This document shows positions 24,229 to 63,900 of a stretch of DNA of 64,000 nucleotides, piece by piece. Positions within the stretch are counted from its first letter, which is position 1; each line of letters begins with the position of its first letter. The position numbers and the translations under genes are program-made. Under the pieces are notes generated by a model. It was not told the origin of the DNA, made no database searches, and was given only the letters and a program-made list of their open reading frames with translations. This stretch comes from Rhizophagus irregularis (Eukaryota; Glomeromycota; Glomeromycetes; Glomerales; Glomeraceae): assembly GCF_026210795.1 (NCBI RefSeq), contig NC_089450.1, forward strand, positions 2,418,001 through 2,482,000. Direction: 5' to 3'.

Positions 24229-24230
24229 TA

Positions 24231-24752
24231 TCAAAAAATTATAAATGAAAACGTGTTACCAGGACGTACTCTTGATCAAATCAGAAATAAGTTTGGGAAA
24301 TTGCGTGAAACGTATTTGCAAAAAAAGAAAAAAGCTAATCCTACTGGTGAAGGTAGTTTAGAATGGATTTGGTTCTCACAAATGGAAGAAATTTTGCCAC
24401 AGAGTAAAGCCATCAACCCGGATTATGTTACAGATTCAACTTCAGATTCTCCTCCTATTTCTGATGGCGAAAATTCAGATAATAAAGAAAATTATAAGGC
24501 TGATGAAACACGAAAAAAGAAAGGAAAATCAACAGGAATTGAAGGTATATCTGGGGTAATTGCAGCAATGGGAGAATCAAGGGATAGATTTCATGAAAAA
24601 AACTAGACTTAGAGGAGCGTGAAAGCCAAAAGAAATTTGAATTGGAGGAAAAGGAATTAATTCAGCAATATGAGCTGGAAAAGAGTAAGTTGGAGATAGA
24701 AAGATTGCGTGCTGAAAATGAGATGTTAAAATTTCGCAAAAATAATGAATGA
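24231..24752 (+). pseudogene. Harbinger Myb/SANT-like gene, 5'-truncated and frameshifted
   Basis: The residues GRTLDQIRNKFGKLRETYLQ and the SLEWIWFSQMEEIL block match the second half of the Myb/SANT-like domain of the accessory protein of PIF/Harbinger elements, which binds DNA together with the transposase. The first helix and any native start are missing; an ATG at 24145 lies inside the adjacent MITE. An acidic Ser-rich linker follows, then a one-base slip in an A-run near 24600. The next phase continues with a charged heptad coiled coil (ELEEKELIQQYELEKSKLEI) to TGA 24750-24752. The gene is convergent with the transposase. Confidence 0.7.
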
Positions 24753-30510: not shown

Positions 30511-32815
30511 ATTATTGACGTGATCCAGGAGAGACCAGGATTGAGCACTTATACGAAATATTTATGAATGAATGAAAGCTGTTGGGTATATAGAATTTTA
30601 ATCCTGTAAATTTTAATTTAATTCTATGAAAAAGAAAAAAAATTCTTTGCCATTATTTATAAACGCATTGATCCAATAAATTGTCTTATAAGGATAAAAT
30701 TATTTGTTGCTTAAATTATAGCACAAACTTTAAATAATGTTATTTTTTTGGTTAATGAAATTAATTCTTTGCATGTATTGTTTTCGATCACAATTTTGTA
30801 ACAAGTAAATTATCTTTGTACTAATCAAATAAAGCAATAATGTTTATAAAAAAATTATATAATCAATTATATTGATGCTTGGCAATATAATTATTAAAAA
30901 TTACAACTTTGAGATTATCTATTATTATTGGCCTTTAAGATAATCTCTTTTTTTTTACACAGTTTGAGCTTATTTAAAATTAAAAATTTTTAAACAATCG
31001 AAAAATTATAACATCCATTGTGCTCTTGGGTGCTTCCTTTGTTTAATAAGCAAATATTTTGTGTTTATATGTGCCGTTACTTATCTCGTATGGTATTGTC
31101 CTAAATCAGTGTTTCAAATTGAAACACATTGTGCAAATTATTTGAGCGACACGATATATTATACATAATCGATATGCCATATTTAAATGAGACGAAATTT
31201 GGCAATATTTGGCCACATTGGTATGGATAGAGTATGTAATTTTATCATTCATGAATTCTAAAAATTTAAATAAATGATTCGCTGCATGCAATTAGAAGAT
31301 TTCCAAATCATTTATATAATTTTGATAAAGGTCTTAAAAAAGAATGGGAAACATGTGCAGTATATCAGTTGGTTAAATTACGGATTATCCTGAAAATACT
31401 ACTGTTTATTCAAAAACTCTGAATACAAACGCGCAACTAAATGTTACAACAATTCCTATACATTCCGAAAGTTTATGCAAGTTTACAAACAATCCTTACA
31501 AATAGTTATGACTCTATGTACCCAAATTTGTAATTATTACAATAAAATTTCTTTTTGATTGCGAAAACTCTGAAATTATGTATTATGTTAAATCTTGTTT
31601 CTTTATATAAATTATACGATAGTCACGCAGTTCTCCTTCAAATAATAATAATAATAATAATAAATTAAATTAAATTAAATTTAAATTAAAATTAAAAATA
31701 AATGAATAAATGAATAATGAACAATATTATCTTACGACGCATAATATTCATATAATCCGTAAATTCGTTTTTATTGTTATTGCGATTGAAACTCTGTATC
31801 AAACTTGTAACTGCCATTTTTAGTAGTGAATAGAATAAGCGTTTTGTTATTATGATTAATTTAGTACATAGAATATTTACAAGATTATTAATCAGAATAA
31901 CTGAACTCACCAAAATATCTTGTTCATTACAAAAAAAAAATTTTTTTTATCGATTACCTGCTTAATTAGGTTAGAACTCTTTTATTTACTTATATGTATT
32001 CATTTTCTTAATTTTCTTATCTGTGACGATCGATAGGTATAGGGAAAACAATTTATCCATTTTAGATTAAAAATTATTTTGTGTTATTATTAAACATGTA
32101 TTAATAATAGCTAATTTCCGGTAACTGAGGTTTTTGAGCGAAAATCATATTACTCGATTTGAGATAATAAAGAAGTCCATTGCTCCGATTCAAAATACAC
32201 ATATAAACAAAAAGATATTCGTTTTTAATCCAATAATCTAATTAATTGCGTGTATAATGCAAAGTCTGCTGTTGTCTGATGCCGATCTCGGATACCCATA
32301 AGTTGTTTAGCATATTAAGTTATATCCAATTCTTTATGGCATTAACGATTTCGGAAAATTTGAAAGTGATAAACCATGCTTTTTTTGGACTAGATGATTA
32401 CATTAAAATTGAATTGATTTTTATAAAACTGTTGTGATTATTAATGAGCATAATGCATTCTGATTTCTCGTTATTATGATTACTTATCGATGCGCCTCTA
32501 TTTTTAACTGGCACAACTGAATTGTTTGCAGTAGTAGACGTACTGTATAAATTACGGATAATTTATGATAGTAATGTTTACTCCTAACCGGTTGCAATTT
32601 GTAAAATAATAAAAGAAAAAATCCAAATCTTTAATGTAGAACCAGAATACTCAGAATACTCAAATACTCAGTTTTATCAGGTTATTTAACTAAACTTCAT
32701 GATTCTCACATAATATTTATTAAAAATACTGACGTATAAATCACGCAATTTTGTAATTGAAGAGAATCATATAATTGCAAATGGGATACGGAGAGACACA
32801 AATTTCACGAGAACA
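30511..32815. other. AT-rich spacer, no gene seen
   Basis: Contains a 10-bp palindrome pair (GAGATTATCT ... AGATAATCTC, about 30912-30949) and an (AAT)n/(AAATT)n microsatellite near 31640-31690. Short frames at 31106 and 31692 (minus) have no recognisable content. Confidence 0.55.
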
Positions 32816-39002: not shown

Positions 39003-39788
39003 TTATTGGCTAAAATTCCCGTCATAATAACTTTGAATGTAATTATCACTTCCATTTTGAATAGTATAAAATTGACAACTGCTATCTTGATTAAAAGGAA
39101 GAATATTCGTATTGTAATTCTGATAATTATCATAATCTTGATAAAATAAATCACAATTTTGTTCATGAATCTGTTTTGGTGTTAAATAATATGTAAAGTC
39201 CCTTTTCAAATGAGATTTGAGATTTTCTTGATGCCTATTGGAAAATTCTTGTTGCTGATGCTCACATTGAGTGAATTGATTACCATAAATGATTTTATTT
39301 AAAAATTGAAATATGAATGTATGTGAAATCATTTTGCAAGTTACTTTATAGATTTTCTCAACTTCTGGTTGTTGATGGTAAAACACATAAATATTATTAA
39401 TTGAGCTATTGTCAGTGTTGTTTATCAATTGTGATACATTTTCAAAAGTCAGTGATAATTCTGTACAAGTAATATGGTATATTTGAAAATCGCCGTATGG
39501 TACATAAAAGAACGAGTATTCATTCGTAACAGGTTCTTGAAGATATTCTAATGGAGATAAATCAGAAGGTATCTGCTGATAATCTTGAATGGGTTGCATT
39601 TCCTGGATGTTAACTTGTAACGGCTGATTTTCATCTGGTACAGTATATGACGTTATTGTAGGAGACATATTGTCAAGAGCTGCAGTAGCATTTCCACTTG
39701 ACGACATGCTAATATTATTAGTATCAAATTGAGGACTAGATGAAGAAAAAATTGCTTGTTCATCGAGATTTTGCATTTTGATAATCAA
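39003..39788 (-). CDS. Uncharacterised family A protein, member 3
   Basis: 261 residues from ATG 39788; a second Met at codon 5 is an alternative start. The leader (1-88) is Ser/Asn/Gln/Pro-rich with a PIQDYQQIP motif. Core: EYSFFYVPYGDFQIYHITCT (residues about 90-109), LSLTFENVSQLINN (111-124), VFYHQQPEVEKIYKVTCKM (135-153), ISHTFIFQFLNKIIYGN (154-170), QENLKSHLKRDFTYYL (187-202), then a DLFYQDYDNYQNY tail. The charge pattern of the core is conserved while the leader varies, as expected for a folded domain after a disordered region. Function unknown. Confidence 0.8.
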   Translation of the reverse strand: MIIKMQNLDEQAIFSSSSPQFDTNNISMSSSGNATAALDNMSPTITSYTVPDENQPLQVNIQEMQPIQDYQQIPSDLSPLEYLQEPVTNEYSFFYVPYGDFQIYHITCTELSLTFENVSQLINNTDNSSINNIYVFYHQQPEVEKIYKVTCKMISHTFIFQFLNKIIYGNQFTQCEHQQQEFSNRHQENLKSHLKRDFTYYLTPKQIHEQNCDLFYQDYDNYQNYNTNILPFNQDSSCQFYTIQNGSDNYIQSYYDGNFSQ

Positions 39789-45242: not shown

Positions 45243-45539
45243 TTAATAAAAAGAAGCTCCATTGGAAAATTGATCTATCAATGAAGTATTTATTTGTTGA
45301 GGATGAAAAGAAGTTTCATTGAAAGAATGGTCTATTAATGAAGTATTTATTTGTTGAGAGTGAAAAGAAGTTCCATTGAAAAATCCATTAACCAACGGAT
45401 TTTCTTTATTTTCTTGTCGAGGAAGGGTCGCGATACGATTTAGTGTATCTTCGTTATTATTATTATTGGATTTGTTTAGTTTGCGTCGAAGTCTACGTCT
45501 ATCGATACTTCGTTGTCGATTTCTTTGTGAAATTTGCAT
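45243..45539 (-). CDS. Small basic family B protein, member 1
   Basis: 98 residues from ATG 45539. The N-terminus is very basic (RNRQRSIDRRRLRRKLNK), then an Asn run, then the family motif: LNRIATLPRQENKENPLVNG followed by FFNGTSF. The tail repeats a 20-residue unit (NGTSFHSQQINTSLIDHSF, NETSFHPQQINTSLIDQFS) made by a 60-bp tandem duplication and ends NGASFY. The basic N-terminus could serve nuclear localisation or nucleic-acid binding (inference). A TATTATATAAAC box lies on the minus strand about 100 bp upstream. Shares the motif with 55275-55502 and 60608-60931. No known family recognised. Confidence 0.72.
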   Translation of the reverse strand: MQISQRNRQRSIDRRRLRRKLNKSNNNNNEDTLNRIATLPRQENKENPLVNGFFNGTSFHSQQINTSLIDHSFNETSFHPQQINTSLIDQFSNGASFY

Positions 45540-47459
45540 TTTGATTACAAGTATTTAGTTTCTCAATTAATTGATTAAAAAAAAATATTAAACAATCTTA
45601 TTTTGTTCTGTAAATACTAAATCTAATCGCGTATGTTTATATAATAGTGGAAACATAGTGGAAAGTACGACAGAATAATTAAATATTCTAGAATCTTGTA
45701 ATTATTAGAATTCGAGCTTTCATTCAACGCTAAAAATAGTGATTTGATTTGCAAAGTGTAAAACAAACATTGATATTCTACTAATCGAAAACATTTCTAG
45801 AAAAATAACAAAAATAATTGATTTGAAACATCAAATATAAATAAATTTATAATATATAGTATGTTGATATTCAGTTTAATTGATTATAAAGTTTAATAAT
45901 TTATGTTTTCGAATAAAGAATTCAGGGAAAATTTCTTTTTACACAAATAAACATAAACCTAATCAAATTTTAACAATAAGCCACGTGCAGTTTCAAAATT
46001 ATAGATTTGTGGATTTGTTTGCTATTATGGTTCATTGTACTTTATTTTGATTATCTTACATTTTAAATGGATAAATAAATTTCATTCAATTCTCGGAGTT
46101 GTCAATCCGTTATAATGTGAATGATAATAAACAAGATAAACAAGGGGATACCAAAAATATACTCTTATGTAATATGTAATCAGTATCAACCTACGTTGCA
46201 CAAAATTATTTTAGTGGAAATTCCTTTGTAACGGGACAAAAACTCCGACAGAATTAATAATCACATGATACGTGAAACGGTGAAGCAGTATTAACCTTAA
46301 TAGTCAAACGTTAAAAAGTCGGGATATCACGTGAAATTTAGGTGATCATTTAAATAATTGTTCGATATGTGATATTAATTAAAATTTGAGAAGTCTTAAG
46401 TCTTTAACAAATATTGTTTCTCAGATGATACTGACAGCTTCAATTTGAAACAAGATATTTTACCTGCATAAGTGTTAAATGTTAAATAACAACCATCCAA
46501 AACGTGTCGATCTCGTGCGCCCACGTTTTCGCACGAGGCATTTGTCACATGCCACCAGCAAAAATTGGCGTTTGAATACGATCATCCAATGATCATATGA
46601 ATTTTTGCTTATGGAATACAAGAATACAAATTTAGATGTTTAACAAATCACAAAAGGTTCATACAGCACAATCAGCTAAGTTTTGTTAACCATCACTACT
46701 ATTAATGAATCTAATTTTTACAATAAATATTCGACATATTGGCACAGCGCTGTTGCATTATACGAAAGAGTAATTTTTATGTTTTTTATTATGAATTTAT
46801 AATTTTTTTATTGCAGCAACAAAGGCCCACATTTATTGTATTTATATGTTCCTTTTAAACTTTCTTGTTGCATTTCCCATTTATTTAGAAAAACGCAGAA
46901 CATTTTGAATATATTGTTACAGTACAGTACATAAAAAAATCGTTTCTATTTTTCAAAAAAGAATGTAATCAATTAATGAGAAATTTAATTCATGATAAAT
47001 AAAACGAAATAAGATAATAAAATTTTGAAAAATTTGGAAAATTTCTAAAAATCGTAACTTAAATTTTAAGGGGGTATTTAAATATATATGTTTATTTAAA
47101 TTTAATTTTTTTTTAAAAAAATAGAGGGAGTGGAGTTCGTTAAACAAACAATTAATTAATTTGGAACGACCTAAATGTATAGGGAATAAATATTAAGTAA
47201 AATTATCGTATAACAAACAGATAAGGTGATGCTAATATATGGTAAATAATTACATATTTACATATTGTATGAAGAATTTTACGTCAAAATAGACGATCTT
47301 GAGGGAGAAATAAATCATAAAAAAAAAAAAAAATAACGAATAAAATTTAGATAGCAACTGAAATGGTGTCACAGTAAATTTTTCCGCAGTACATAAAATA
47401 ATTCAAGTTTCAGTGAATGAATATTATTGAGTTTACTGAATTGAATATTTTGATTTTTT
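45540..47459. other. AT-rich spacer, no gene seen
   Basis: The 5' part holds the likely promoter of the minus-strand gene at 45243-45539. A GTGCGCCCACGTTTTCGCAC hairpin-like block sits near 46516-46535. No other support. Confidence 0.55.
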
Positions 47460-47645
47460 CTTTGTTAGAAAGAAAATCCATTGAAGAATTGATATATCAG
47501 TGGGTTATCTGTAACTTGCCGAGGAAGGTTGGAGATACGATTCAACACGTCGTCATTATTAAAGGATGCATTGCGTCTTCGATATATTTTATTTATAATT
47601 CGTTTTCTTCTCAATTGATTTCGTTTTCTTTGAAAAGACATTATT
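47460..47645 (-). pseudogene. Relic of a family B gene
   Basis: The plus strand here follows the same order as 45370-45535: GAAAATCCATTGAAGAATTG versus GAAAATCCATTAACCAACGG, then TGCCGAGGAAGGTTGGAGAT versus TGTCGAGGAAGGGTCGCGAT, then GTCTTCGATAT and TCGTTTTCTTCTC versus GTCTACGTCTATCGATACTT. The minus-strand frame is broken by indels. It lies about 2 kb from the intact gene, so a local duplication followed by decay is likely. Confidence 0.65.
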
Positions 47646-49372
47646 ATATATTATTGATTCTTTATTCGTAAAATAATTGGTTCAAATTATGGAGTTTCGG
47701 ATAAAAATCATCGAAATATAAATGTATTTAAGGAAATAGACGAATTATTATTTTAAAAATCGACATATATATATATTGTTAAATAACGTTTCCAAAATCA
47801 GTTAATAACACGGGACATTTACGATTCCTACCGATACAAAAACTTTTATATATAAATCAGGAATAATTCAGTAAAACATCTAAACGCCAAATACCTCAAA
47901 AAAAAGTGAGTCATTTCAAGTTTTGCCACTTTTTTGTCATTCCTTTCTGATTTTAATTATTCCTCAATAATAACATTCTTTTTTTCTTTTTCTTTCCTTT
48001 TTTTTTTGATAGTGAAACGTAACATTTTTATTAACGCTTGATTACGAGAACAATCAGTTGTGCGTAATCCGTCAAAATCTGTAATAATGACTATAAATTA
48101 AAAATGTTTTGTATCATTTTACTTTTTTCATATATTAAAAAATTTTTAAGATTAAACAAAAAAATCAATATTTTTAATAGATTAATTTGAATTAAACGAA
48201 TTAAACGTGATAGAAGTTCGTGCATACTTATATACCTTATTACTGAAATCAATAAAAAACATTATCGAAAATTTCGAAAATTTAATGTATTTTTGTATTT
48301 ATGTGTTAAGAAAAAACTTTATCTGCGCATTTTTTTTTTTTTGTACAAAAATTGCTTATATAATGTAGTACTGCATTTGTTTAAGATATTGGCGTTTGTA
48401 TTTTAGTTCCAGAAAAGAAAATTCAATTTCAATAATAAACCATTTTAAGTTACATTTTGATTAGCATACACGTACTATAGTGATAAGGTATTGTGAGTGG
48501 TTGATGACGACGGCGGGGATGACCGTGCATACATATGCATCAAACTATTTGTGTGTTACATGTTTATACCTTTCAAATTTATTTGCTTCTACGATTAGAC
48601 CCCACAATGACATGGTTTGTTATGGTTTGATTCATATACTATTTAGAAATTCCAAAGAATAATTCCGTTCACTTTCGGAAAGATGGCCTTTGAAAATGAT
48701 TTGATAATGTAAAAAATTCGCTTCAAAGAATTCATGGAATAATAGCATTTATGAATAAGGGAGTACATGTACAATATAATATATTAAGTATTAAACCAAA
48801 CTAATTATTTTAAGAATAGCTTGAAGACAAAGAAAACGAATATAATACGGCTTTGTCCGGCTATATATATTAAACATTTTATTTTCTTTTAATCTTAATT
48901 CAGTTGGAAGTAAACTATAATATTTTAGACACATTAAATATTTTTATTACAAACCTAATCGATTAAAAGCATCAAAGAATATCATTATTATTTGGCTTGA
49001 AAGAAAGAATGCAATAACTATTTTCAACAGCGCATATTTTTTACTAAAATTTGTTCATTTTTCTATTTTTATTAGTATTATTTGGTACATAAAAAAATCA
49101 GAAATCATATAAATGTAATGTTTAATTACAGTATATCATATATAAAACTTTTAAGTATGTAAGTGAAATTTTTTTAAAATAAATATTACATAATCTTTAT
49201 CGTAAGATCGTGTAGGTCGTTACAAAATTTACATAAATTTTTTCTCATGGTAAAAGTTATTTAGTTACAGTATATTAATTTCAAGGTGCTCTATACGAGC
49301 CTGGTGTAACTCAACTGGGTCCGTCTCGACTCGATTATAGGTTAATTCGGGTCAAAACTCGAATTTAATATA
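47646..49372. other. AT-rich spacer, no gene seen
   Basis: No secure gene. At about 49286-49370 a GC-richer patch with CTCGACTCGATT and ATTCGGGTCAAAACTCGA resembles decayed hAT subterminal repeats (compare 14390-14460 and 14679-14874). Confidence 0.5.
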
Positions 49373-49569
49373 CAGTCAGACCTCCATAATTGCACACCCC
49401 TTGGGACCATATGCATAATTTTCAAAATAGTGCATTTAAAGAGAGTGTGCATTTATAGAGGTAAAATAATTAGAGATCATATAAGCTTGGGACCGAACCA
49501 GAGGGTGCATTTAGAGAGGGTATACATAGTGGTGCAATTATGGAGAGTGCAATTATAGAGGTCTGACTG
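49373..49569. mobile_element. pogo-like MITE, CAGTCAGACCTCCATAATTG
   Basis: Left end CAGTCAGACCTCCATAATTG and right end whose complement is CAGTCAGACCTCTATAATTG, with TA outside both (49371-49372, 49570-49571). Internal GTGCATTTA-GAGAG motifs repeat three times. 197 bp and non-coding; same type as 27925-28110. Confidence 0.85.
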
Positions 49570-49571
49570 TA

Positions 49572-52569
49572 TAATGTATAATATTTTTTTTATTTTTTGT
49601 CTAATTTTTATGATCGTCAAATTGCGTATACTGTATGCGTTTGTTTAATAACTTTATACTGTAATAGAGATTGAATTATTAGTTTTTTTTTATACTAACG
49701 AAATTGATTTAGTAATGAAAAAAATTTTTCCTCTTTATTAAATGAATTTATTAGAATAATATTAATTATATAAATAGATAATGTCAATAACCTGGTGGAT
49801 ATTGCTAAGTAACTTGCAGCATGATCATCGTTTGATTTGTCATTTTTTTATCACTTTTAAACACACAATAGCCATAAGAAAATTGAACCCGAGCTTATGA
49901 AAATTATTCATCATAATGTTATGGAAAGTTAATCTTGTTTGGCTCATCATTTCGTCAATAAGTAAAATAAGTAAGAACCATGATTATTTGTAACAAATAT
50001 ATTTTTTTTGAAAAAAAAATCCCGCCCAGACATAATTTTATTTACTTTTACTACCTAATTCCGGTTTTAAAAAGATTATGGCCTTTCCTAGCTAATTTCG
50101 ATAAATTTCTTATAAGGCGCAGATCAGATTTTATTCTGCGGTTTATGTAACACTATTTTTTGCGTAAATAATAAATATATTAGGCCAGAATTATGAATTT
50201 TGGCCAAAATTTATAAATAAAAATTACAAAATCACATGATACGGCATATGACTAATTATAACTCTGGCCGACAATATTATAATTCTGGCCATGTTTTTGT
50301 CTCAGACTCAGTTATTCGTTATGTTTAAGAAGCGGGCCTTAATCATTAAACAAATTTCAAATTTAAAGTATAAAGTAGAGAAATAAAAATATAAAAAATT
50401 TATTCTCTACTGATAATCCCTTATAGTACAAGATACTCCAGTTATAACACAAAATGCCTGGTCCAAAATTATATTGTACTTCAAAGTACATCATAATACA
50501 AAAGAATTTAATATATGACTTTTTTTATCAACAAACGGTGGATACTTTATATAGTGGTCATTCTCAAAGGGGGATATTTTGTGCGGTGTGGTACAGTAAC
50601 TATTTGAAACTATCAATAAATGTGTACAGTTTCTATTTTATGTACATATACAAATTTTTAAGTTTTTTCCTATTTTATCCATCCAACAATCAAATAGGTA
50701 TTCTTTAGTAAAGGATAATAATTATTGTGTATTATTAATGTCGTAAATTGGTTTGGATGGTTATTTTTGCAATTTCTTTCCCCTTTCTATTTGAACCAAA
50801 TATTTTTTCATATATTTGTAATTTCTATTATCACATTTTCGCTCTAATTGCCATAAATGATCATCGTAATCATAGTAATGAAATTTGAAATTCGAGTCAT
50901 CCCGGATAACACGGGTATGACTCGAACCCAGGTCATGCGGGTCACGAACCATATAAATTTAAAATTTAGGTTATGGGAAATTGGGCCTTAATTTTAGTAT
51001 TTACCAACCATTGTCCAACTATGTAGATCTCAATTAACCTGAGTCGAATTCCCGAGTTTACTTTGATCGGCACCATTTAGTACACGATTACGCAACCTTT
51101 ACCTGGCAGAGAATTTTATATGTATTTATTTATCAATTCCTAGAAGAATTTGTAGTAAGAATTAACTATTGATTATATTATAATAGATGGCTTTGAAATT
51201 TTTTCTTTTTTCAGAAAGATTTGTAATCTTTCAAATGAGAAAATTTTATATTTTTTTATAATATCACTATTCTTTTCAGGTGTAATAGTTCTGAAGTTTT
51301 ATTAAATTTTTACTCATTTTTTAAAATGGTCAAAATAAATAAAAAAAATAAGTAGAAATAAACAATAAAATATACTATATTTATACTCACTGATGATAAT
51401 GATATACGGGACATCGGCCGATCATTTGTGTAAAATTCAAAGAATGATATAATACCAAATATAAAAGTTTGTCCATCGAATAATATACAACTATACTAGT
51501 ATGACATCACATTATCCCGACAATTAAATTAAGCAAATAGTATTTATTTAAATCAGCCTAAACTATCATCCGAACAACAGAAATTAGATAAAACACAATG
51601 TATGAGAAATTGGTATGGATAAAAAAGACAAGATATAATCATTTATTGGCTACTCGGAATTCAAAGATATGTTTCCTTAAAAAGTAACAGTATGACGCAA
51701 AGAAAAAATTTTAAAAGAATACATTAAAGTATTAATTACTACGTTAAGTATTTCACATTGATTCCTTCCCAAAAAAAGATGGCTTGTTACACGATTTCTT
51801 TGTTGCACAATAACGTAAGTGGCAAGCTTTCATTCAAATGTAACGATTTTAGGAAATTTTTAATTTATCAAAGTATTTTTCTTCTTAGAAAAAATTATTT
51901 TAAATGTAATGCCTAGAAAATAATTAAATAATTAACTATGATTGCTATTTACATTATTTATTATTTCCATTATTTTGATGATAAATATGATATCTTACGG
52001 TTGAAATTTTTTTTATTTTCAATTAAAGCAGTATTTAAGAAGACTGAAATTGTAAACTTTGCCAAAATTTTATAATAATAAAATTATATCTCTAGAAAAG
52101 CAATTCATATCATTTTAATTGTTTAAAGATAAGATAAAATTGAAAAAAAGATGATAAAGGTTCTTTGTACATTTCAATTTCGAAATTAATATTTGAATTA
52201 TTAAAATATTAATGTAATTAGGAAATATTTTTTATATTGGGTAAATATTATTTATTATTTATGGCTTATTTTGTCATTTCCTAATTTGAATAATGGATTA
52301 ACGAATTTATCTCATCATTTAAATAATGCATTTTAGGTTTAAATTTTGCAAACTCTTTGCCAAAAATCCATTCTACTGTTGGTTTCGCTCTGGACGATTA
52401 GAATCATAACACAATTAACATGATGTAAATACCGTCGCAGCAGTTACAATTTCATAGAGATAATCATCATCCTTCTTGGATGCATCATCTATTTTTCGTT
52501 TCCTCTTTTAGTTTGGTAGGCACCTTCGCATTGTGGATTTTGATAAATGTGTATTGATTTCATAATCAG
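49572..52569. other. AT-rich spacer, no secure gene
   Basis: Contains four CTGGCC/AGGCC-AGAATTAT motifs clustered at 50182-50292 with a CACATGAT segment. At 50880-51070 a GC-richer patch (GGGTATGACTCGAACCC, CATGCGGGTCACG) may be a decayed element. An upstream exon of the 52570-53163 gene may lie near 52516-52550. Nothing else supported. Confidence 0.5.
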
Positions 52570-53163
52570 GGAGCATTAATATTAATGTCGTCCAAAATCA
52601 ACGTCTAACTAACCAAACGTATAGTCCAATTGTTAATTGTGAACGGATACATCAAAGATTTTTACCACACAAACCTTATTTGAGGTAAGTAATTTTCCAC
52701 TCAAAATTATCTTAATCGAAAAAAGGTTTCCAAAATTTGTCCAATTTCTAATTATATTTCATTATTTGTATAAAAGTCATCAGCCTCATCCATTCTTGGA
52801 ATGTAGAAAACTTCCAGAAAATTTCATGAAATTATTTTCTCATTATATGAAAGAAATGATTCAATAATAGGTAAAACCAAGAAATGAAAACATTCAACTC
52901 ATGGTCAAATACAATTATTCTTAAATCGGTTTTACAATTTGAGGATCTATTTTGATAAGTCGGCCTCATTAATAATATAAACATCGAAAGAACTTGTCCC
53001 GGTTTAAAGCCTCAAAAAGTGGATCTTTACCGTCTGGCGGAAATGAGAAGTTACTATCGCAAAATAATGGCGTGAGTATTATTCCAACTTTTATAATTAT
53101 TGAATATTGTTGACTACTGACTATATTGTAAATTATAGCATGAATTTGCGGTGTGTCAGTTAA
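52570..53163 (+). CDS. Probable intron-containing gene, unknown product (partial)
   Basis: Exon-like blocks: 52570-52684 (after CAG; ends at donor GTAAGT), about 52777-52870, 52960-53071 (ends at donor GTGAGT) and 53139-53163 (after TTATAG, ending TAATAA). The introns of 92 and 67 nt have GT-AG borders, and the last has a GACTACTGAC branch-like site. Peptides are not spacer-like: YSPIVNCERIHQRFLPHKPY, then HQPHPFLECRKLPENFMKLF, then CPGLKPQKVDLYRLAEMRSY. The second and third blocks join in phase only if the second is read in its other open frame, so an indel or a misplaced border is possible. The 5' end is unknown. A hAT element begins 4 bp after the stop. Confidence 0.45.
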
Positions 53164-53166
53164 TAA

Positions 53167-53420
53167 TAGGGATAGGAATCAACTCGCTCGATCCGTTCCG
53201 GTTCTGACTTCTGAACAGATACTATTGAGCGAACCGACTTAAGCCAGTTTGAATTGGATGAATCGGTTCCAGTTTTATAATAATTCGATTTGGTAATTTC
53301 AGTCCAAAACTGAATCAGTTCATATCAAAAATTTATCAGAACCTGTCGGAACTGAAAGTACCAAACCGAACAGGAACGAACCGACTCGAACCGCTCAACC
53401 GCGAACCTTTCCCATCCCTA
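53167..53420. mobile_element. hAT-like MITE, TAGGGATAGGAA ends
   Basis: Ends TAGGGATAGGAA (53167) and TTTCCCATCCCTA (ends 53420). The interior carries repeated GAACCG / CGGTTC and GAACCGACTC motifs near both ends, as in other hAT elements here. Flanking octamers GTTAATAA and ATTAGTGA agree at 5 of 8 positions, consistent with a decayed 8-bp duplication. Confidence 0.72.
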
Positions 53421-55218
53421 ATTAGTGAGTCGTACTTGAACCGAATGGCATTTATATAATTATTAACTGATTTGAGATAATAAAATGGATGCAAATCTGT
53501 TCATAAAGACCGAAAATAGATTAAAATTACTTTAAGTTAATTATTTTTAACGTTATTCTGATTTCTTTTATACTTACATTAATTAAATATATTTTTTTCC
53601 GCTTGGATGCCGGTAAAATAACCTTTATTTAATTTTTTGGTCGGAACAAATAATAAATCTGCAGTAGATCTAAAGATTGTATAACGTAAGATTGCATTTT
53701 TATTTGTTTACTTTTATCATTATGCCCAAATTTATGTTAAAATAATTCTGAGGTTAAGACCTTTATAAGACGAATGTAAGAATTTACGAATTGACGAATT
53801 GAAAAATCGGAATGGTAAAACAGGTAAACACAACTTTATTGAAAACAAAAGTAAAAAAACGAAGAAAACATCTGTACGTCTAAACCAAAAAAAAAAAATA
53901 TTTAATTTAAAATGTTTATTAAATAAAAATGCATAATGATGCAATTTCATTCACCGATACGGAATTAAAAGGATAATGACTCCATTTATCAAGACCGGAA
54001 ACAAAACTGGACTTTGGAATCCGGTATAATCCGGTTGATCATCATAACGCAGCATCTTTTTTACTTTTTTATTTTTATCTACTTTGTCAGTTTTAACTAT
54101 CCGAGAGCAATCCAATCGAAATTTAATATTCTGCTTTATTATTACAGTAATTATTATATTTATCTGTCTTGTATTTTATTTTTTGTTTTCTTTTTTTATT
54201 TTATTTTATTTTATTTTATTTTATTTATTTATTTTTTTTTTGTGTTAGATTAACTTCATAAGGCGCAGTCCCATGGAATTTTTTGGTTAGAAACTTTGTT
54301 GTGAGAAAAAAAAAAAATTTACATAATCATACTTACCAGATATGGAGCAAAACGCCATCTATATAATACTTTGAATTAAGGTTAAAGTTTGGTGGTAACT
54401 GAAAAAAAAATTCGATACAAGATAAGAACAATGGTTTATTTTTTTTTTATTAACTTTACCGTTTTACAATTAGTAGTAATCCCAATATTTTTGTTGCATT
54501 TTCAAAATGTATGGGCTGAGAAAAAGATGAAAAGATGGAAAATACATTTTCAAAAAATCAAATGTTTCACTGCAATTACTTGACATTTCAATGAAAACTT
54601 TAAGGATAAATTAAAATCATTAAGTGAGTAAACCCCAAAAATTGTTTTTTTTTTTTACTAAAAGAAACCAAAGATAGAATATGCGATTAAATAGAAACGA
54701 ACCTTTTTAGTTTATTATACTAAAACTTAATTTTTTTATTGACTTATAATAGATTTAAGTACAAAGCCGCGTTAGCACTTATGAATTCACATGTCAAATA
54801 GCTTTATTCCCCTTATTGACTATAAAATAGGCTCACTGATTTATAGTGTGATCGTGAGAGTCTATTTAATAAGTTTATGTCTTTAGGTAATACTCTGCTC
54901 AGTAATTGGACGCCAAGTTAAGTGACACATTTGAGCTTGTTAAATGTACTATAAGTATATAATATGTGACAAAAGAGGTTCAATCGTTTATATTAGCTAA
55001 CAAAGAAACTGTAAATAACTACTGATAATGCATTTCCATGGGAAAAAATTTTTTAATTTTTCTAAAATAAGAAATATAATGATATCTTTTACACATCGAT
55101 GAGAATTAATATGTGTATATTTATTAGATTTCAATAAGTTTCTGTAGAAACAGCTGATAGAGATAATCTGATTTTATTTTTCTAAGTAGCCTAATAAAAC
55201 TGATAGGTGCCGATACGG
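53421..55218. other. AT-rich spacer, ATTTT microsatellite
   Basis: An (ATTTT)n tract at about 54196-54236 lies inside a Phe/Tyr-rich frame that I do not count. No gene supported. Confidence 0.55.
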
Positions 55219-55229
55219 TATATATAAAG
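55219..55229 (+). promoter_or_regulatory. TATA-box-like TATATATAAAG
   Basis: TATATATAAAG lies 46 bp before the ATG of the family B gene at 55275, in a GC-richer context (GATACGGTATATATAAAGCC). Position and sequence fit a core promoter; inferred only. Confidence 0.55.
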
Positions 55230-55274
55230 CCCCAGAAAATATTCTTCATTTTTCACTTTATATATTAGTCAAAA

Positions 55275-55502
55275 ATGAAGGATTTAGCCTTAAAAAAACT
55301 TAAATCTAAATCATTTCAACGAACTTCACAAAATTTAAAATATCGTAGAATACTTATTAAGTATCTAAGAAAATATAAAAACCGTACTAAACATGATATA
55401 ATTGTTAGCAATCAAAAAAGATTGAACCAGATAGAATCTATGCCACCTCAAAATACAGATGACTCAAAAGCTTCCGAATTTTATAACGGCTACAACTTTT
55501 AG
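55275..55502 (+). CDS. Small basic family B protein, member 2
   Basis: 75 residues from ATG 55275. Strongly basic: LKKLKSKSFQRTSQNLKYRR, then YLRKYKNRTKHD. The C-terminal part LNQIESMPPQ...EFYNGYNF aligns with LNRIATLPRQ...GFFNGTSF of the 45243-45539 protein, with the NPLV block lost or replaced (DSKASE). A good TATA box lies upstream. A frame continuing past the stop in another phase is hydrophobic and not counted. No signal peptide. Unknown function; possibly nucleic-acid binding, given the charge. Confidence 0.62.
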   Translation: MKDLALKKLKSKSFQRTSQNLKYRRILIKYLRKYKNRTKHDIIVSNQKRLNQIESMPPQNTDDSKASEFYNGYNF

Positions 55503-56578
55503 TAAAATTGGCAAAAGAAACGAAAAAAAAACAAGGGCATATAATTGGCGATTCTTTTTTTCTATTATTTTTTACTCATTATTCGTATATCGTTATGTAA
55601 TAATCTTTTCTGTGTATTTCAATTTTTATCTCGGCTTCTTGGTATTCGAATATGTATTAACACGTACATATCAATTTTCTTTTAATTATTTTACCGACTA
55701 TTTTGCAGTAAATCAATATAAATTCATTTTTAACTTATCGATTTAAGAAAAAATATGATTTTTCAAGTTTTTTTTTTATTAATATACGATTAGTGTATTT
55801 AGTATTTTTCCTTCCTTTTGTTAGGATAATATTTTTTCGTTATGAGATATATCCTTTTTTGGCAATTTTTTTTATACAATAATTTGCCGATCTTTGCCAA
55901 ATTTTCTAATTCTCTATTTTTTTTTTGATTTTTTTCCATTTTTGGCGTAAACCTTTTTGGGCCATATTATAATACTTTCAAAGACCGTATAATATGCGTA
56001 TTTTCGACTGCTTTCCAATTTTATTTAGTATATCAAAAAGGGTTTAGAATACTGGGTTTGACTTTTAAAAACAAAATCCTTTATTTTATATAGATTTTAT
56101 TTTTATTTTATTTTTATTTCACAGGGAAATATAATTCACTCTATTTTATATAAGATTTTATTTGTTTTCCGAATATAATTAAATAAAATCACGTGCAATA
56201 TTTATTATATAAACTGCGGTGCAAAATAAATTTTGTAAAAATGTACACAACTTTTTTAAATATTTTTAGAGTATCAGTAAATTAATCTAACCATTTTTGT
56301 GAAATAATAGGTATAATTTACAAGACAAAATGGTATTCAACTTCTCCTTCGGTCATTTTAATTAACCATATAATTAAAACTTGTAGAGAAACTTTGTGTT
56401 ACGATATTACCGGATAGTCTATTGGCCGTTAGATAATTTTTAATTTGACGGAAAACTCAATTATCGGAAAACCAAAATTATTATTTTAATGTATTAGAGA
56501 CAATAGATTGATGATCAAATTTTTACAAACAACGTAAGGTAAATAAGAACCAATAAAATCAAAGACCCTTATCATCGT
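55503..56578. other. AT-rich spacer, no gene seen
   Basis: T-rich DNA downstream of the family B gene, with no element ends or supported frames. Confidence 0.55.
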
Positions 56579-56710
56579 ATTTTGTGGTTATTAAGCACCC
56601 CCCGAAAATAAACACCCCTGGCCAGAATTATGGCGATTTTGGTCAGAATTATGGAGATCTTGGCCGGCATTAAGTGCAAAAAATAGGGTGCTTGTATATT
56701 CCGTAAAATA
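56579..56710. mobile_element. Diverged relative of the 26545-26680 MITE
   Basis: Left TATTTTGTGGTTATTAAGCA and right TATTCCGTAAAATA with inner AAGCACCC / GGGTGCTT match the arrangement at 26545. The centre has CTGGCCAGAATTATGG, TTGGTCAGAATTATGG and TTGGCCGGCATTA in a row. No coding frame. Confidence 0.65.
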
Positions 56711-57050
56711 TGGTACAATGTACAATAATCGGCAAATGATTTTTTAGGGGTAACCCTTGCTATTGTTTAATCCATTTCCGGGATAAACTATTATATTCTA
56801 GGTGATCATGCCCTTGTTTATAATTAATGAAAACATTGTTTTTTTTTTTACTATAGAATACCTTGTTAATATCACGTTTTATATATTTAAAAATTGTAAT
56901 AATTATCAGGCAAAAGACTTAATTATTTTCAAAACCAATACTTTGTTCGTGTTAATTAAATAACGAGAGTATTTTATTCCTTCCCATTTTTCCAGTTTTT
57001 ATACATGTTGATCAATTTACAAAAATGTTTACCTATTAAAAGTATTATAT

Positions 57051-57468
57051 TTGGGCAGTGCTTATCTCTCCATAATAATCATAATAATTTGTGAATGTGA
57101 ACAAATTAATGAACTGTTAGAAAATTTATTAAATTGGGATAATGATTGGAAAAATTACCTTAACAGAAGAGGAGTTAGAGAAGTATTTATAAAAGAAGAG
57201 AATTTTGAGTTGAAAATATGTGATGAAAGTAAAGTTCGTCATGTCAAAATTGTCAAAATTATTTTTCTATTTCGTCATTTGCATTTTGGTCAATTTTAAT
57301 AATAGAATAATTTCGTTATTTCGTCATGTCAAAATGTTCGAAATTATTTTTACCATTTCGGCAATGGCCTTTTTATTTTCGGAAGCAACTTTAGATGAAA
57401 GTGGAAGAGTTGTAGATAATATGGTTATTTTAGAAAAAGATTTGGGTAGTAAGAAAGATAAAGAATAA
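57051..57468 (+). pseudogene. Possible decayed gene, unknown
   Basis: Plus-strand peptides with gene-like composition occur in two phases: INELLENLLNWDNDWKNYLN and VREVFIKEENFELKICDESK (57051-57239), later ATLDESGRVVDNMVILEKDL before a stop at 57468. In between, a unit TTTCGTCATGTCAAAAT is repeated at about 57233 and 57320, which could be an expansion that broke the frame. No family recognised. Confidence 0.25.
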
Positions 57469-58852
57469 CATAATTTGATGTTGAAGAAAATTATTTCTTT
57501 TTAATTCAGTTGAATTTGAAAGAACCTTTAATAATTTTTGTGAAAAATTATATTTGTGTTTATTAACAGGTATAACATCCAGATATTACAGAAAATAAAA
57601 GAGGACGGAAGCAATTCTGTGTAACTTCAGGTATAAACGATTCAAAGGCGATCATTTGTAATACCATAATTGCTTAATTGCTGCAAAGTTCATTACTTAT
57701 GTCTTGCTTTATACCGTTTTTTTTGAATTTCCCTATTTCATAATTATTAATCATCAATTTTTCATAAATACACCCATAGCCAATATTGATTTTTTTTTTA
57801 ATCAAATTATTTCAGTATCTAGATAAATACGTACGCAATAATTTTATTAGAGAATCTTAATATTTAAAAGAATCAATAACTTTGATAGTTTTATAAAGTT
57901 TCAGAGAAATCTTACTTACATATTATGCATATATATATATATATTCGATATCTTATTCTTTTTGATGAATGCTTTTGGAATAAAAGGTAACCTTTCCGTG
58001 GACGGAGGTGTAAAAATAAATAACGATCCAGGCTTTTTACAAATAATAATATAAAATTAGTATATAAGTTCCTCTTAATTAGGATATTGAAAGATTCAAA
58101 AGAAAAATTAATGAGATATGAGATAAATTAATATTTACAATTACCACAGAAGTAGCATTCATTTGAATTTCCATGAATGAAGCTTCAACTATTAAATGCA
58201 CGGCCAGCACAGAATACCGACAGTCTTAACTCTCCAATCATTTGTAAAACGCTGTTTAATCATATCATTTTCTAATTAAAAGGAACTTTCCCATAAAATT
58301 AATATGCTAAACACCTTTTTTGCCCTATTTAAATTATTAATTATAATATTGATTAAAAAAATTAGAAATCAAATTAATAATTTACGAAAATAATTTAATA
58401 AAAATCACTAAAAATGAAAATTAATAGATACCTGAACTTTTGTGATAAAAATTTTCATTGTTAAGGTTAACCTCATTATCATAAAATGTTTTAAACCATT
58501 TTGAATATTGTTATGAAATTGCTACCATATACAGTGTGAGAAATCTAGCTCAAATATGTATGATATTGAGAATTAAGCCACCAATTCTGATCATTGATGA
58601 TTACAATATCGTAATTATCAAAATACTATTATATAATTTTTAATAAAAATTGGAGAAAATGCAAAAAATCCTATATATTTATATAAAATCAAAAAAAAAA
58701 ATGTTAAATGTAATGTTAATTAGAATGGAATACCAAATTATTAAAATATATTATAATTTTCTTAACTTTTTAAGAGTAGATTTCAACAATGCTTCTTATT
58801 TTACAGTATGTGTTAAACTATTTTATATTAAAGTTTGGTGGTTTTCGACCGG
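57469..58852. other. AT-rich spacer, no gene seen
   Basis: No supported gene or element; a short (AT)n tract lies near 57930. Confidence 0.55.
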
Positions 58853-59135
58853 CACGATTAACTGTTAATTTTGTCGTAAATATCTAAGGCTTTCTGCTTA
58901 GTTTCGATCAATTAATATATACCATTGAGCTGCTGCCTATTACCGCAATGGATTCTTATGAATTATCCTTTACAAACAGTCCATCCAGCATGGACTAGTT
59001 CCAACACGATTAACTGTTAATTTTGTCATAAATATCTAAAGCTTTCCGCTCAGTTTCGATCAATAAATAAATATCATTGTGCTGCTTCATGGATTCTCAT
59101 GAATTATCCTTTACAAACAGTCCAGCATGAACTAA
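58853..59135. repeat. 152-bp tandem duplication
   Basis: CACGATTAACTGTTAATTTT begins at 58853 and again at 59005. Both units share ATCTAA-GCTTTC-GCT, AGTTTCGATCAAT, GCTGC and GAATTATCCTTTACAAACAG. The second unit has small deletions. A 60-codon frame starting in the second copy (59099) has no recognised domain. Confidence 0.8.
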
Positions 59136-60326
59136 AGCCACATAATAAAAGAAATGAAATAATGACCCTATTAGAAAATTATTATTTTACAAAAGATGAT
59201 TATTTAGAAAATATCATTCTATATTTGAAAATTATGAAGGAAAATTGTTATAAAGATGTGCGGATGATAACTATAAATTAAGTTCAATATTGACAAATGA
59301 ATATAACATAGTTAACATACCTATCATGACTATTTCAAGATTTGCATTCACTCTTTGATGAATTTTCTATGTAAATTACAAATGTTTTAATAATCCCTCT
59401 GGGAGTGTTGATTGCACCTCAATAAAGAATATGGACTTGCTATCATTTAAATTATTATTGAGGTTTGAAAATTAAAAAATTGGGTAGCTTCTATTAAAAA
59501 TATGGACTCTTGACCCTTCTGTTTCATGTTAGATACTTTCGGAATTTTCTATTAAAATTTTAATTCTCATAAAGGTGAAATGGAATTCACTTGATGGAAA
59601 TTTAAGATAGTCTGGTGGAAGGCTCGGCTCAAATCCCTAAAATTTCTAACCCCTTCTTGAAAAGTTGCAATGATGAAGTAAAATTTGTAAAAATACATTG
59701 CACACATACACAACAGATTTTTTGAATGACTTTTGGTAAATCATTTGAGAATTCTCAATGAAAAAATGGAATGCCGCAAGAGGAACAGAACCATTCATTG
59801 TGTTACATCGCCGATCGTTTTGTCAATTTATATCTTAAAATGAATAAATATATAAAAAAAAAAAATTTTTTTTTTTATATTATCAATCGAAATTTCATTT
59901 TTAGAAAAATAATTTCATTTGTCACACGTAAAAAAAAGGGGTTAATAACCTTATGTAATTTTAATTGTTGGAAAGTTATTCGGAATCAGATTCGGCCGAT
60001 GTTCCGAACAATAATGAATAAAGTGAATAGGAAATTTTCATCGTATAAATTTATAATATTGCAATGCATCATTTTTTTAGCATATAATTCGTTTAACTAG
60101 ATTAACCATAAATAAAACGTGTTTAATAGTTAGATACGGCGCAAAATTGATTATTTCATATTTTATTTTACATTCCGGAGTAACTTGAATTGTGTCACAT
60201 AACACAAAAATTTATAATAAAGAGCACGTGGCACGGCGCAAAAAATGGAATTTATTTTCAATTAAAATAACCTATATAAATATTGTTATTACACAATATT
60301 GATATACACGAAAAATCATACATTCT
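59136..60326. other. AT-rich spacer, no gene seen
   Basis: A 109-codon frame at 59771-60100 is dominated by Lys/Phe/Ile from A/T runs and is not supported as a gene. Confidence 0.5.
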
Positions 60327-60406
60327 TATATTTGAAGGTAAAACGAAATCTTATTAAATAAAAATGTATATTTGAAGGTAAAAAGAAATCTTATTAAATA
60401 AAAATG
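60327..60406. repeat. 40-bp tandem duplication
   Basis: TATATTTGAAGGTAAAACGA with its continuation is repeated almost exactly with a 40-bp period. It lies about 200 bp downstream of the minus-strand family B gene. Confidence 0.8.
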
Positions 60407-60607
60407 AAAATTTGTATGCTTAAGAAAAAAAAGTATGTATAAAAGGAACAATTAATTCATAGTTTCATACATTAATGAAGTGTACTATATTAAAGAAAGA
60501 AATTCCATAATGTATAAAGTGAGATCTAAAAAAGGCAACACAATGATTAGAGAAAGTTACATAAATTTAACTAATATAAAAACCTTCCTTACTTTTCAGA
60601 CTTGTTC

Positions 60608-60931
60608 TTAATAGAACGAAGCTCCCCCGAATAAACCATCAACTAAAGGATTACCGGTACTTTCTTGAGGGTTAAGCTCTGCCGCTAGATTAGATAGACT
60701 GGGTGTTACACTAGCTCGAGCATCACAATACCGACGTCGTCTAATCCTTCTGCTCGTATTTGGTTGCCGTGAAGCTGCTTGCATCCTATAAATATTGTGC
60801 GAAGGTCCACCAGGTCTTACCGCCGGTGCAATAGTTTGATGCTGAGTTGGTAAGTTGGCTTGAGCTTGCGCAGCCTGAACTTGTGCTGCTCTTGGCCTAT
60901 TGGGCTGATTTTGTTGGTTAACTTGGCTCAT
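60608..60931 (-). CDS. Small basic family B protein, member 3
   Basis: 107 residues from ATG 60931. The N-terminal half is Gln/Ala/Pro-rich (AAQVQAAQAQANLPTQHQ) and probably disordered. A basic block TSRRIRRRRYCDAR follows, then LSNLAAELNPQESTGNPLVD and GLFGGASFY at the C-terminus. The last part corresponds to NPLVNGFFNGTSF and ends in SFY like the 45243 protein. Base composition is richer in GC than elsewhere, typical of selected coding DNA. A TATATATA box lies upstream (minus strand, about 61040). No signal peptide; role unknown. Confidence 0.75.
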   Translation of the reverse strand: MSQVNQQNQPNRPRAAQVQAAQAQANLPTQHQTIAPAVRPGGPSHNIYRMQAASRQPNTSRRIRRRRYCDARASVTPSLSNLAAELNPQESTGNPLVDGLFGGASFY

Positions 60932-63900
60932 TATTAGCTATCTCATGAAAAAGAATAGGTTCTCATTAAATTTATTTTATTTGTAACAATTATAAGCGTA
61001 GCATAAAGTTTTTTAAGATGTTTTTAAAGTATTTTAAGGTTATATATATATAAAAAAAAATAAAGAAATAAATCTTTACCTTTTCATATGAATTTCTTGA
61101 GAAAAAAAAAAAGATATTTTTGTTTATTCTTGAAATCGGTCCGTTATTCCCGTTCTTTTTTTTTTAAAAAAAAAAAATTTAATTGTTACATGTTACTGTT
61201 ATCTACACCAATTGTATCAGTAAGATAAGATTATTTGATTGTCCAACTTATAATTTAATCATATAAGCTTAGAGCGAACGAACATGATTGTGTTAATAAA
61301 AGATATTGCAGTTGATTTTGCGTGAAATAGTATAAATTGAACTAGACGCGTGTTACCTTCTCAGGAAAATGTTTACTCATGTGAAATATTTCTCATAAAT
61401 CAGTTTTGATAGATAATCTTTAAACCTTTTTTTTTTTATTTTATAAATAAATAAATAAAGATAAAGGAATACAGTATGATCATGCATCTTAATAAAAGTT
61501 TTCCTATTGTTTCTATTGTTCTTATCTTAATCAACAATATTAATAACGGGACGGGGTAATTTTATAAATTATTTCATGTGAAGATAAACTTAATCTATGG
61601 TGTACATGATAATTATAAAATTATAGAGTACTATATTGATTATATATTGATTATAAATTATAAAGTAAAAGCAACATCTATAGTATTATATTATTAGATG
61701 TAACATTGAATATATATGAGGTAAACAAAAGTAAACGTAAATTATACAATTGCATATATACATCTAAAAATAACAGTAAAAGTAACTTTATTCGCGGTCC
61801 AGACTTATCTCCTAAAATAAGTGATGTGGGTATCAAGTATTTACGTGGTTCATTTGATTAACATTTTTTCATGATAATCATTGATTAATTATTATAACAG
61901 ATATAAATTGAAAATCCCTTAAATAATATTTTAAAATGTTTGTGTATATATATATATATATATACAGTATGTATTATATATATATATATATATGTATGTA
62001 TTATATATGATACTGTATCTAATAATTATTTATACTATTAAAGTTAATATTAATTGAAAAATTAAATCGGGAATTTTGGGTATTGTAGTCATTATTTGTG
62101 CAGTTAATGTAACATTGGGCGTAGCATGTATCGCTTATACTATGCAGAGACACTATTCCGTACTATTCCGTACTAGTTATTATGTCATTATTCACAGCCT
62201 CCTCTCTTTGTGGCGGAAGTGGTTCGGCAAAATGACTCTTCAATTTTGTTTGCATTGCATGCTAAATCCGATTTATGAAAACTTATATATTGTTCACAAG
62301 CAATTTTAAATAGATAAAATATATATATATAACAAAATAATAAAATAGAAAATAATTATTTGTTTTGTTTAAAAAGGGTGAATTCTGTGTTTTCATCCCA
62401 TGATTAAATATATTATATAATTAATTCACTCTTTGTTGCTAAATAAGTATTTTTTTATGTCATAGTTATATTCATATATTAAAAAAGAGCTTTGTTTTCT
62501 TTACCGGGCTTTTAAAAAATTGCTATTTTTAACAATGAAATTTAGTTATAGCGATATAAAAATCTCAAATGAATTAAATGAATTAATCAAAACAGTGAAT
62601 TAATATAGATGACTTTATCCTGATACTTTTAGTCTTCGTTACTAGAATAGATAAAATAATAATGTAAGTTACGCCAACGTCAGATGATTGTCACTTTGTT
62701 AAAATTGCCTTCCTGAGATCATTTATGCAATATTACGATATTTTTATATTAATTTTTACCTAAACTTACTATATAAGATAAGCTAAGTTAGTACTTTGTA
62801 GCTTTGTTCAAAAATAACAAAATAATTTAGAACATAAGATTAAAAAGTCTAACTAAAATGTATAAGTTTTTGAATTACTTTTTAGGTATACAATATGTAA
62901 GTAATGATCTGATGATCGAAATCGACGTTACACACCAGCTACGTAGAGTTTAGATTACATTTTTTGGTTATTTTTTTAACAATTCAGCCAGTCTTTTCTT
63001 AGAAGGTATGTAACATTAAAAAAAATTGACAGATGATGTAAACTAACTACTCAAAATATCAACAATTCGGCACGCGCTAATTATGTTATCCACTTCTTCG
63101 ATCGTTGATTAGAAACTGGGTACTTGTTGTAAGTCACGTGTTCATTTGAAAAATACCCTTCGCACGGATCTACAAATTCGTTAATTCACTTAATTTTTAC
63201 AGAAATTTAAACCAGCAGTATAACTTAAGAATATGTTATGCAGAAAATTTCAATAATTATTTACTTACTAAATGCACCATAGCATTGTTAAAAAAGAATT
63301 ATTTGAAAAAAAAAGTCGAAAATATTTCATTTTTATGAAAAATGTTCTTGTTAAAAGATTAATTAAAAATTGGAATAAATAATATTAGAGTGGTATCGAA
63401 TTCGAAATTTAAAAAATTACTCCGGTTACACTGCATATATATTATTTATCCGCATTATGTTTTGATATTTTGAATGTCGCTAGTTACACAAGATCAAATT
63501 TCAAGCCACTTAACTTTTTTTTATACTATTACATGTTCAAAATATTTTCACTTTTTTAATAGAGAGGCTTCATATACATATATCTTTAATAGTTATAAAT
63601 TATAAGTTTCAAAAAAAATTATATTCTATAAATTTAATATTAAGAAAGTAATCCCGACGACCTAGCTAATTTATTAATTTTAATTTTAATTGTATATTTT
63701 ATAATATCTTTGATAATTTCATAAATAAACTGCTGTTACAGTCTTACAGATTTACAGTATATCATTAATTATTTACCTTTTTCATATTTGATATATTTTT
63801 CTTTAATATATTATATTCTTAATAATTTTGAAAACGATCATCATATTTGTATAATTTGAACCTTAATTTATTTTATTTGTGTCGTTCTTTACTAATCATT

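Follow-up and report, generated by a model that had tools for sequence, protein, structure and literature searches.

A conserved C-terminal tail shared by a large, locally amplified family of small proteins in Rhizophagus irregularis

The WRPW peptide of Hairy, whose partner is Groucho, is a short C-terminal docking motif. Described here is a C-terminal tail, some 30 residues long, that is carried by four small proteins encoded in a 64,000-nucleotide stretch of the arbuscular mycorrhizal (AM) fungus Rhizophagus irregularis (hereafter "the window"; C22:2418001-2482000, where C and L numbers are contig and locus labels in the source genome). Like Hairy, this family appears to place a constant short peptide at the C-terminus behind a basic or possibly DNA-binding part; the likeness is one of analogy and no sequence relationship is expected.

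According to Manley et al. (2023; PMC10234402), AM fungi exhibit a burst of lineage-restricted genes, and many F-box genes are among those born with the Glomeromycotina. The first exon of five C22 relatives of the window proteins matches the F-box profile PF12937, albeit under its cut-off; the window proteins differ in having no F-box, and in the fused relatives an arginine-rich segment and the tail replace the remainder of the F-box protein. Relatives on C11, C12, C7, C21 and C2 may recall the HMG-box (MATA-HMG) expansion of Rhizophagus in the spacing of helices 2 and 3 and in profile score, whereas these long forms show no match to Pfam HMG_box and the window proteins lack the domain. The SP7-like nuclear effectors of AM fungi are described as a Glomeromycotina-specific family acting at nuclear condensates (PMC11333574). 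Compared by description only, these secreted proteins are unlike the window proteins, the N-termini of which are charged or polar, with no hydrophobic stretch seen by eye. Outside subscription papers, supplements and preprints, literature searches on gene families of R. irregularis and on F-box, lineage-specific and arginine-rich families listed no description of the tail family. It appears to be undescribed; expanded families that share a tail are known in principle.

The tail and its family

The four window open reading frames (ORFs), B1 to B4, code for proteins and belong to a large gene family that has been amplified locally. They and their elements are as follows; scores are those of a hidden Markov model (HMM) of the tail.

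45243-45539, minus strand: B1, a single ORF of 98 residues, arginine-rich segment followed by the tail; 67.9 bits, E = 4.2e-20
45360-45455, minus strand: tail proper of B1, residues 29-60 (NEDTL...TSFH), HMM domain at 34-65 of the reading frame; coordinates from codon count
45246-45359, minus strand: two degenerate repeats of the B1 tail end, residues 61-79 and 80-98; three HMM domains in the frame, visible in the translation
45636-45643, minus strand: TATA-like element of B1, about 100 bases upstream of the start codon; from sequence and family-wide enrichment
47465-47641, minus strand: B2, an intact ORF of 58 residues; 50.0 bits, E = 1.7e-14
47468-47557, minus strand: tail of B2, residues 29-58, by HMM
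55275-55502, plus strand: B3, 75 residues, with the most diverged tail in the window; 16.8 bits, E = 4.2e-4
55410-55499, plus strand: tail of B3, residues 46-75, by HMM
55219-55228, plus strand: TATA-like element of B3, about 50 bases upstream of the start codon; from sequence
60608-60931, minus strand: B4, 107 residues, Gln/Ala-rich N-terminus, RRIRRRR segment and diverged tail; 26.0 bits, E = 5.2e-7
60611-60706, minus strand: tail of B4, residues 76-107, of which the HMM aligns 84-107; start placed by eye
61040-61050, minus strand: TATA-like element of B4, about 110 bases upstream of the start codon; from sequence

The HMM was built from 19 genomic copies, all of them outside the window, and run against 1936 six-frame segments of the window. 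B1, B2, B4 and B3 rank on top in that order, and the next segment follows at E = 0.051. The top score in 40 residue-shuffled windows is 14.3 bits, compared with 16.8 bits for the weakest real member, B3; none of 2000 shuffles of its tail, and none of 2000 for the tail of B4, equals the real score. The original prediction, made from the window sequence, had described three ORFs of 98, 75 and 107 residues on both strands as small basic proteins that share a tail, to be judged by whether the tails align better than shuffled sequences and whether copies exist elsewhere in the genome. The three ORFs exist as described, and the tails of the two weakest members do outscore their shuffles. What it had listed as a degenerate copy at 47460-47645 is in fact the intact B2, which fits the family better than two of the original three.

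Copies elsewhere are plentiful. Searching the 146.7-Mb genome (32 contigs) in six frames with four family proteins as queries (E <= 0.01, matches merged) reveals 198 distinct places on 25 contigs among the matches listed; the predicted family is real and far larger than reported. The count is rough, as the queries are single proteins and the search with L081, a 61-residue copy, scored the best 150 of 167 candidates; it includes B1, B2 and B4, a small number of matches interrupted by stops, and C11:4749320, where only the N-terminal part of the query matched. Among the matches listed, C22 carries 43 copies, C11 27, C6 22, C17 21 and C15 16. Another copy lies within 50 kb of 83% of the places, against 13% expected under random placing, and copies have their closest neighbor at a median distance of 10.4 kb. 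B3 is absent from the 198 places, which were found with other members as queries, and a genome search with B4 yields only four places at E <= 10, B4 itself counted; these two of the four window copies are therefore outliers. Since gene callers easily miss ORFs this small, the family may be under-annotated.

The presence of the tail was checked by HMM in 131 loci, comprising 127 fetched from the genome and the four window copies (set aside were L041-L067, L129-L132 and L139, each an HMG box, an upstream piece or a repeat fetch of one of the copies). It is found in 128, all except L026, L035 and L140, and 115 of the 128 possess an in-frame ATG before it. The reading frame stops no more than two residues past the HMM match in 87 of the 128 and no more than five in 94. 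The family tail, at or near the C-terminus, reads N-x-D-T-L-x-R-I-x-x-L-P-x-Q-x-T-N-N-P-[FL]-x-N-Q-F-F-N-G-[ST]-[SP]-F. Alignment of the 111 tails of at least 24 residues shows the Gly (110/111) and the final Phe (all 102 that reach so far) to be most constant, followed by the Gln of P-x-Q (103/111) and the second Phe (102/111) and Asn (101/111) of QFFNG; residues beyond the last Phe are variable. The motif first proposed, NPLV[ND]GxFxGxSFY, holds for the 98- and 107-residue proteins only, the end shared by the 111 aligned tails being xNQFFNG[ST][SP]F. The description of these proteins as motif-ended suits the family as a whole and fails for B1, where the motif precedes two repeats of its own last part; B1 (window 45246-45455) thereby has three copies of the tail end. 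Tandem duplication is also seen in L127 (C22:2482950-2483950), in which the tail or its end is duplicated and LMEKLPPQQTTNNPLID is present twice. The basic character holds for nearly all: of 74 short family ORFs, 70 carry a net positive charge, in a set that counts the window copies and four ORFs behind an F-box-related exon (L004, L006, L010 and L069).

Beyond the source genome, comparison of the tail covered protein-family libraries, structure libraries and literature. The best Pfam match of the four window ORFs has E = 0.054 and the best NCBIfam match E = 0.0061 (17 bits, where the cut-off is 91), and the spellings FFNGSSF, FFNGTSF, FFNGSPF and NQFFNG were not found in the literature outside subscription papers, supplements and preprints. 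The original statement that no named family has this tail agrees with these searches.

The tail is under purifying selection and is conserved at the protein level. The ratio of nonsynonymous to synonymous divergence (dN/dS), pooled over 11 pairs hand-picked from 28 close pairs, is 0.29 for the tail (bootstrap 0.19-0.44) and 0.45 (0.33-0.61) for the part before it; no locus was used twice, and some ancestry is common to pairs. A stop lies inside only 6 of the 141 matches listed in the L081 search. Upstream of the start codon, ATAAATAC is present in 23 of 88 copies versus 1.6 expected from shuffles, in a set that includes L069, which follows an F-box-related exon, and the long forms treated below. 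Matches to TATAWAW peak 80-99 bases before the ATG (45), with a second peak at 120-139 (32), and B1, B3 and B4 each have a TATA-like element. Selection, the scarcity of stops and the TATA-like elements together speak for real genes. The sequence TATAAATACGTC before the ATG is common to the stand-alone copies L005, L007, L070, L094, L106 and L111, and L089 has ATAAATACGAC; such a sequence may represent a core-promoter element longer than the plain TATA box. AATACGTC is present in 8 of the 88 upstream regions, where 0.27 is expected.

Larger proteins that carry the tail

Several N-terminal parts are encoded ahead of this one tail: arginine-rich stubs, exons related to the F-box, a coiled-coil-like stretch and possibly an HMG-box-like domain. 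In the stand-alone short form, as in the window, a variable N-terminus is followed by an arginine-rich segment and then by the tail. In seven copies on C22, an F-box-related exon on the same strand lies just upstream, and a predicted phase-2 GT-AG intron links it in frame with the tail exon.

C22 near 2417235, 2486023, 2490087, 2492661, 2519772, 2983116 and 3321068: F-box/tail fusions, by predicted splice

One fused gene, at C22:2416624-2417402, is situated 0.6 kb left of the window. The predicted introns measure 69-110 bases; several acceptors are possible per gene, and the one nearest to the donor was chosen, the joint of L016 excepted. Each of the seven upstream exons either is the F-box exon of L066 or matches it, and PF12937 matches five of the six first exons scanned (E 5.5e-5 to 0.016). 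In four of the seven (L001, L002, L003 and L016) no ATG precedes the tail in its own frame, and these therefore need an upstream exon. Pairwise comparison of five of the upstream exons gives dN/dS values of 0.30-0.48. Because the frames of seven relatives of the F-box part run to 607-632 residues, the tail in the fused genes seems to occupy the place of the remaining F-box protein. An eighth copy, 2537397 on C22, looks like a fusion by eye and was unmatched in the search with the L066 exon; at 3337296 on the same contig the frame is open through.

The long form comprises 20 frames of 134-201 residues from the first ATG, located on C11, C12, C7, C21 and C2. Its domain before the tail reads LTGKDLLK...IIDLATNEIWNSxLTxSQRxxFxxLANxANxIN, and in most members an ESLILPxG-like stretch follows the tail. 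The domain shows the W...LA spacing of HMG helices 2-3, and a profile-profile comparison with the genome's own HMG boxes scores 20.4, where 200 column shuffles reach at most 14.7; that HMG-box set is large, all listed among the best 150 of 275 candidates scored exceeding Pfam's cut-off. The comparison with hhalign gives a probability of 6.5 and P = 0.0057. Single long-form sequences score at best 10.6 bits against HMG, compared with 10.0 for shuffles, and Pfam HMG_box at E <= 1 matches none of the 20 long forms and no window protein. This is weak evidence that the long-form domain may be HMG-box-like. The best match of the long form in the PDB has E = 0.16. L142 on C31, the frame of which had suggested an HMG box, was rejected, as it has no Pfam match and scores 9.7 bits versus 10.0 for the best shuffle. 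Two short C11 forms, L098 and L145, apparently retain the last helix of the long-form domain (by eye), so that the short form on that contig seems to be derived.

L121 (C2) encodes a charged, coiled-coil-like stretch (EEKHLI..K..LWRR) that shares its frame with the tail; L131 and L132 (C6) have a similar frame, upstream of that of the tail and linked to it by position only. These stretches were recognized by eye. No such stretch was seen by eye in the C16 loci L129 and L130.

A rough tree of 98 rows and 90 columns, the bootstrap of which had not settled, leaves out L117, L127, L072, L084, L092 and L113. One branch (support 100/99) splits the long forms and nine short copies from the other 69 rows, and six of the seven F-box fusions fall within a single group of 16 with stand-alone copies and B2 (84/90, under the program's own star). 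The topology is consistent with F-box fusion as a local event, in one cluster, in a family whose stand-alone form is widespread.

AlphaFold modeling of B2, with the four window proteins as alignment, places helices at residues 2-26 (arginine-rich), 29-37 (NDDVLNRIS) and 47-53 (PLIYQFF), and the tail may plausibly be modeled as two short helices around a P-x-Q turn. The model thus consists of a basic helix and two short helices; the window proteins show no HLH match in Pfam. Searched against the PDB, the tail profile hits a phage collar protein best (E = 0.022, 19 residues aligned), a match judged to be due to chance.

Possible roles of the tail

Since larger protein parts, F-box-like ones among them, also precede it, the tail resembles a docking module that can be reused. 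We tentatively propose that it is a modular docking peptide for a common partner and that it is combined with an arginine-rich segment that binds nucleic acid or acts in the nucleus, a reading we hold to be the likeliest of those considered, if short of probable. The original prediction had suggested nuclear or partner-binding peptides; partner binding is made more likely by the occurrence of the tail behind F-box-related and other larger parts, and for a nuclear role the arginine-rich segment is the sole evidence.

As a docking peptide, the tail would consist of two short helices joined by the P-x-Q turn and would bind one conserved partner, while the arginine-rich segment before it would bring the protein to nucleic acid or into the nucleus. 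What becomes of the partner would depend on the N-terminal part; in the F-box forms it would be ubiquitin transfer through the SCF (Skp1-cullin-F-box) complex. F-box proteins usually carry a substrate-binding part where the fused genes have the tail, and the partner may therefore be an SCF substrate. The short forms of the window would act as adaptors or as competitors for the same partner surface. New forms would arise by local duplication and by splicing of an upstream exon onto the tail exon.

Several observations weigh against this proposal. The fusion introns are predicted from sequence only, with more than one acceptor available in each gene, and every PF12937 score on the upstream exons lies under Pfam's curated cut-off; the PF12937 scan of the exon of L006 (L065) and the Pfam scan of the exon of L128, adjoining the window, gave no F-box match. 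Synonymous sites between the F-box exons are near saturation, with a proportion of synonymous differences (pS) of 0.48-0.58. The window itself has no F-box exon, its best profile match (E = 0.025) lying inside a retroelement, and the Pfam scan found no F-box in the window proteins; since none lies near the window copies, the fusion argument comes from relatives. The AlphaFold model is built from four sequences and has a mean predicted local distance difference test (pLDDT) of 75.5, 58-76 in the tail, and a predicted template modeling score (pTM) of 0.35. Whole-ORF dN/dS is near 1 in L073/L083 (1.00), L089/L116 (0.91) and L101/L120 (1.07), and in L086/L112 that of the tail is 1.5.

A somewhat unlikely alternative is that the tail is a C-terminal localization or stability signal (an address label or degron) rather than a docking peptide for one regulator. 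An address label would suit both the position of the tail, near the end of the frame in the 94 loci mentioned above, and its occurrence behind unrelated N-termini. However, some 30 residues with two predicted helices, in a low-confidence model, are long for such a signal, the residues past the final Phe vary, and on the C11/C12 branch a conserved ESLILPxG stretch follows the tail, so that a free end is not needed. We regard as quite unlikely that the tail associates with itself, as an oligomerization motif which assembles paralogues and F-box forms; the tandem tails or tail ends of B1 and L127 would agree with this, whereas the predicted helices, at 7-9 residues, are short for a classical dimer.

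An extension of the docking proposal, speculative and decidedly improbable, would be a lineage-specific decoy-and-destroy network, in which one tail links about 200 arginine-rich proteins with F-box, possible DNA-binding and coiled-coil proteins; the F-box-tail proteins would mark the partner or one another for degradation, and the stubs would compete or protect.

Very improbable, in our view, is that the short ORFs are functionless relics, the last exons of larger genes that have decayed. Such relics could account for the last helix apparently kept in the short C11 copies L098 and L145 (by eye), for the 13 of 128 tail loci without an in-frame ATG before the tail, four of which are the F-box fusions L001, L002, L003 and L016, and for the three close pairs with dN/dS near 1. 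Against this stand the purifying selection on the tail in the 11 pooled pairs of short copies, the TATA-like elements common to copies, the in-frame ATG in the other 115 loci and the small number of internal stops. That the ORF belongs to a transposable element is scarcely credible: high copy number and the retroelement in the same window (by eye) would suit it, whereas the copies lie in local clusters and the flanks of the 11 pairs, of which only a few hundred bases were fetched for most copies, are as divergent (averages of 0.25 and 0.26) as synonymous sites (0.24 and 0.26), as in ordinary duplicates.

Were F-box proteins and small nuclear proteins coupled by the tail, as the docking proposal would have it, this would amount to a regulatory network special to AM fungi. 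Many of the lineage-restricted genes of AM fungi lack a handle; this family, with some 200 genes and one well-defined conserved peptide, offers one for the partner search, one peptide for one pull-down. The tail also illustrates the reuse, inside one genome, of a terminal exon with N-terminal parts that are unrelated.

Other features of the window

The GC content of the window is 24-37% in 2-kb steps, mostly below 33%. An endogenous giant-virus region of 1.5 Mb and 36.6% GC is reported for R. irregularis strain 4401 only (PMC10640383); a reading of the window as this region was rejected on GC and strain, with no virus gene search made. A second multi-copy family, family A (FYHQQPE..KIYKVTCKMISHTFIFQFLNKIIY), is found on the minus strand at 16650-17498, 29884-30561 and 39006-39776. 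With the third ORF as query, 110 matches reach E <= 0.01, many of them on C22, C25 and C19, and family A has no significant match in Pfam. A relationship to the F-box exon, suspected from reading the sequence, was rejected upon profile comparison (hhalign P = 0.68).

A retroelement without long terminal repeats, recognized by eye and broken into several frames, occupies 1382-9737 on the plus strand, and comprises a large ORF1-like frame, a frame with both endonuclease- and reverse-transcriptase-like sequence and an RNase H-like frame. It is followed at 10011-10629 by near-identical short repeats, in a block with three simultaneously open frames (133, 185 and 203 codons). Finally, what we take to be a Myb/SANT-like frame at 24136-24606 (plus strand) lies beside a frame at 25431-25769 (minus strand) that presumably resembles the start of a Harbinger-type nuclease; together these are probably a decayed DNA transposon.

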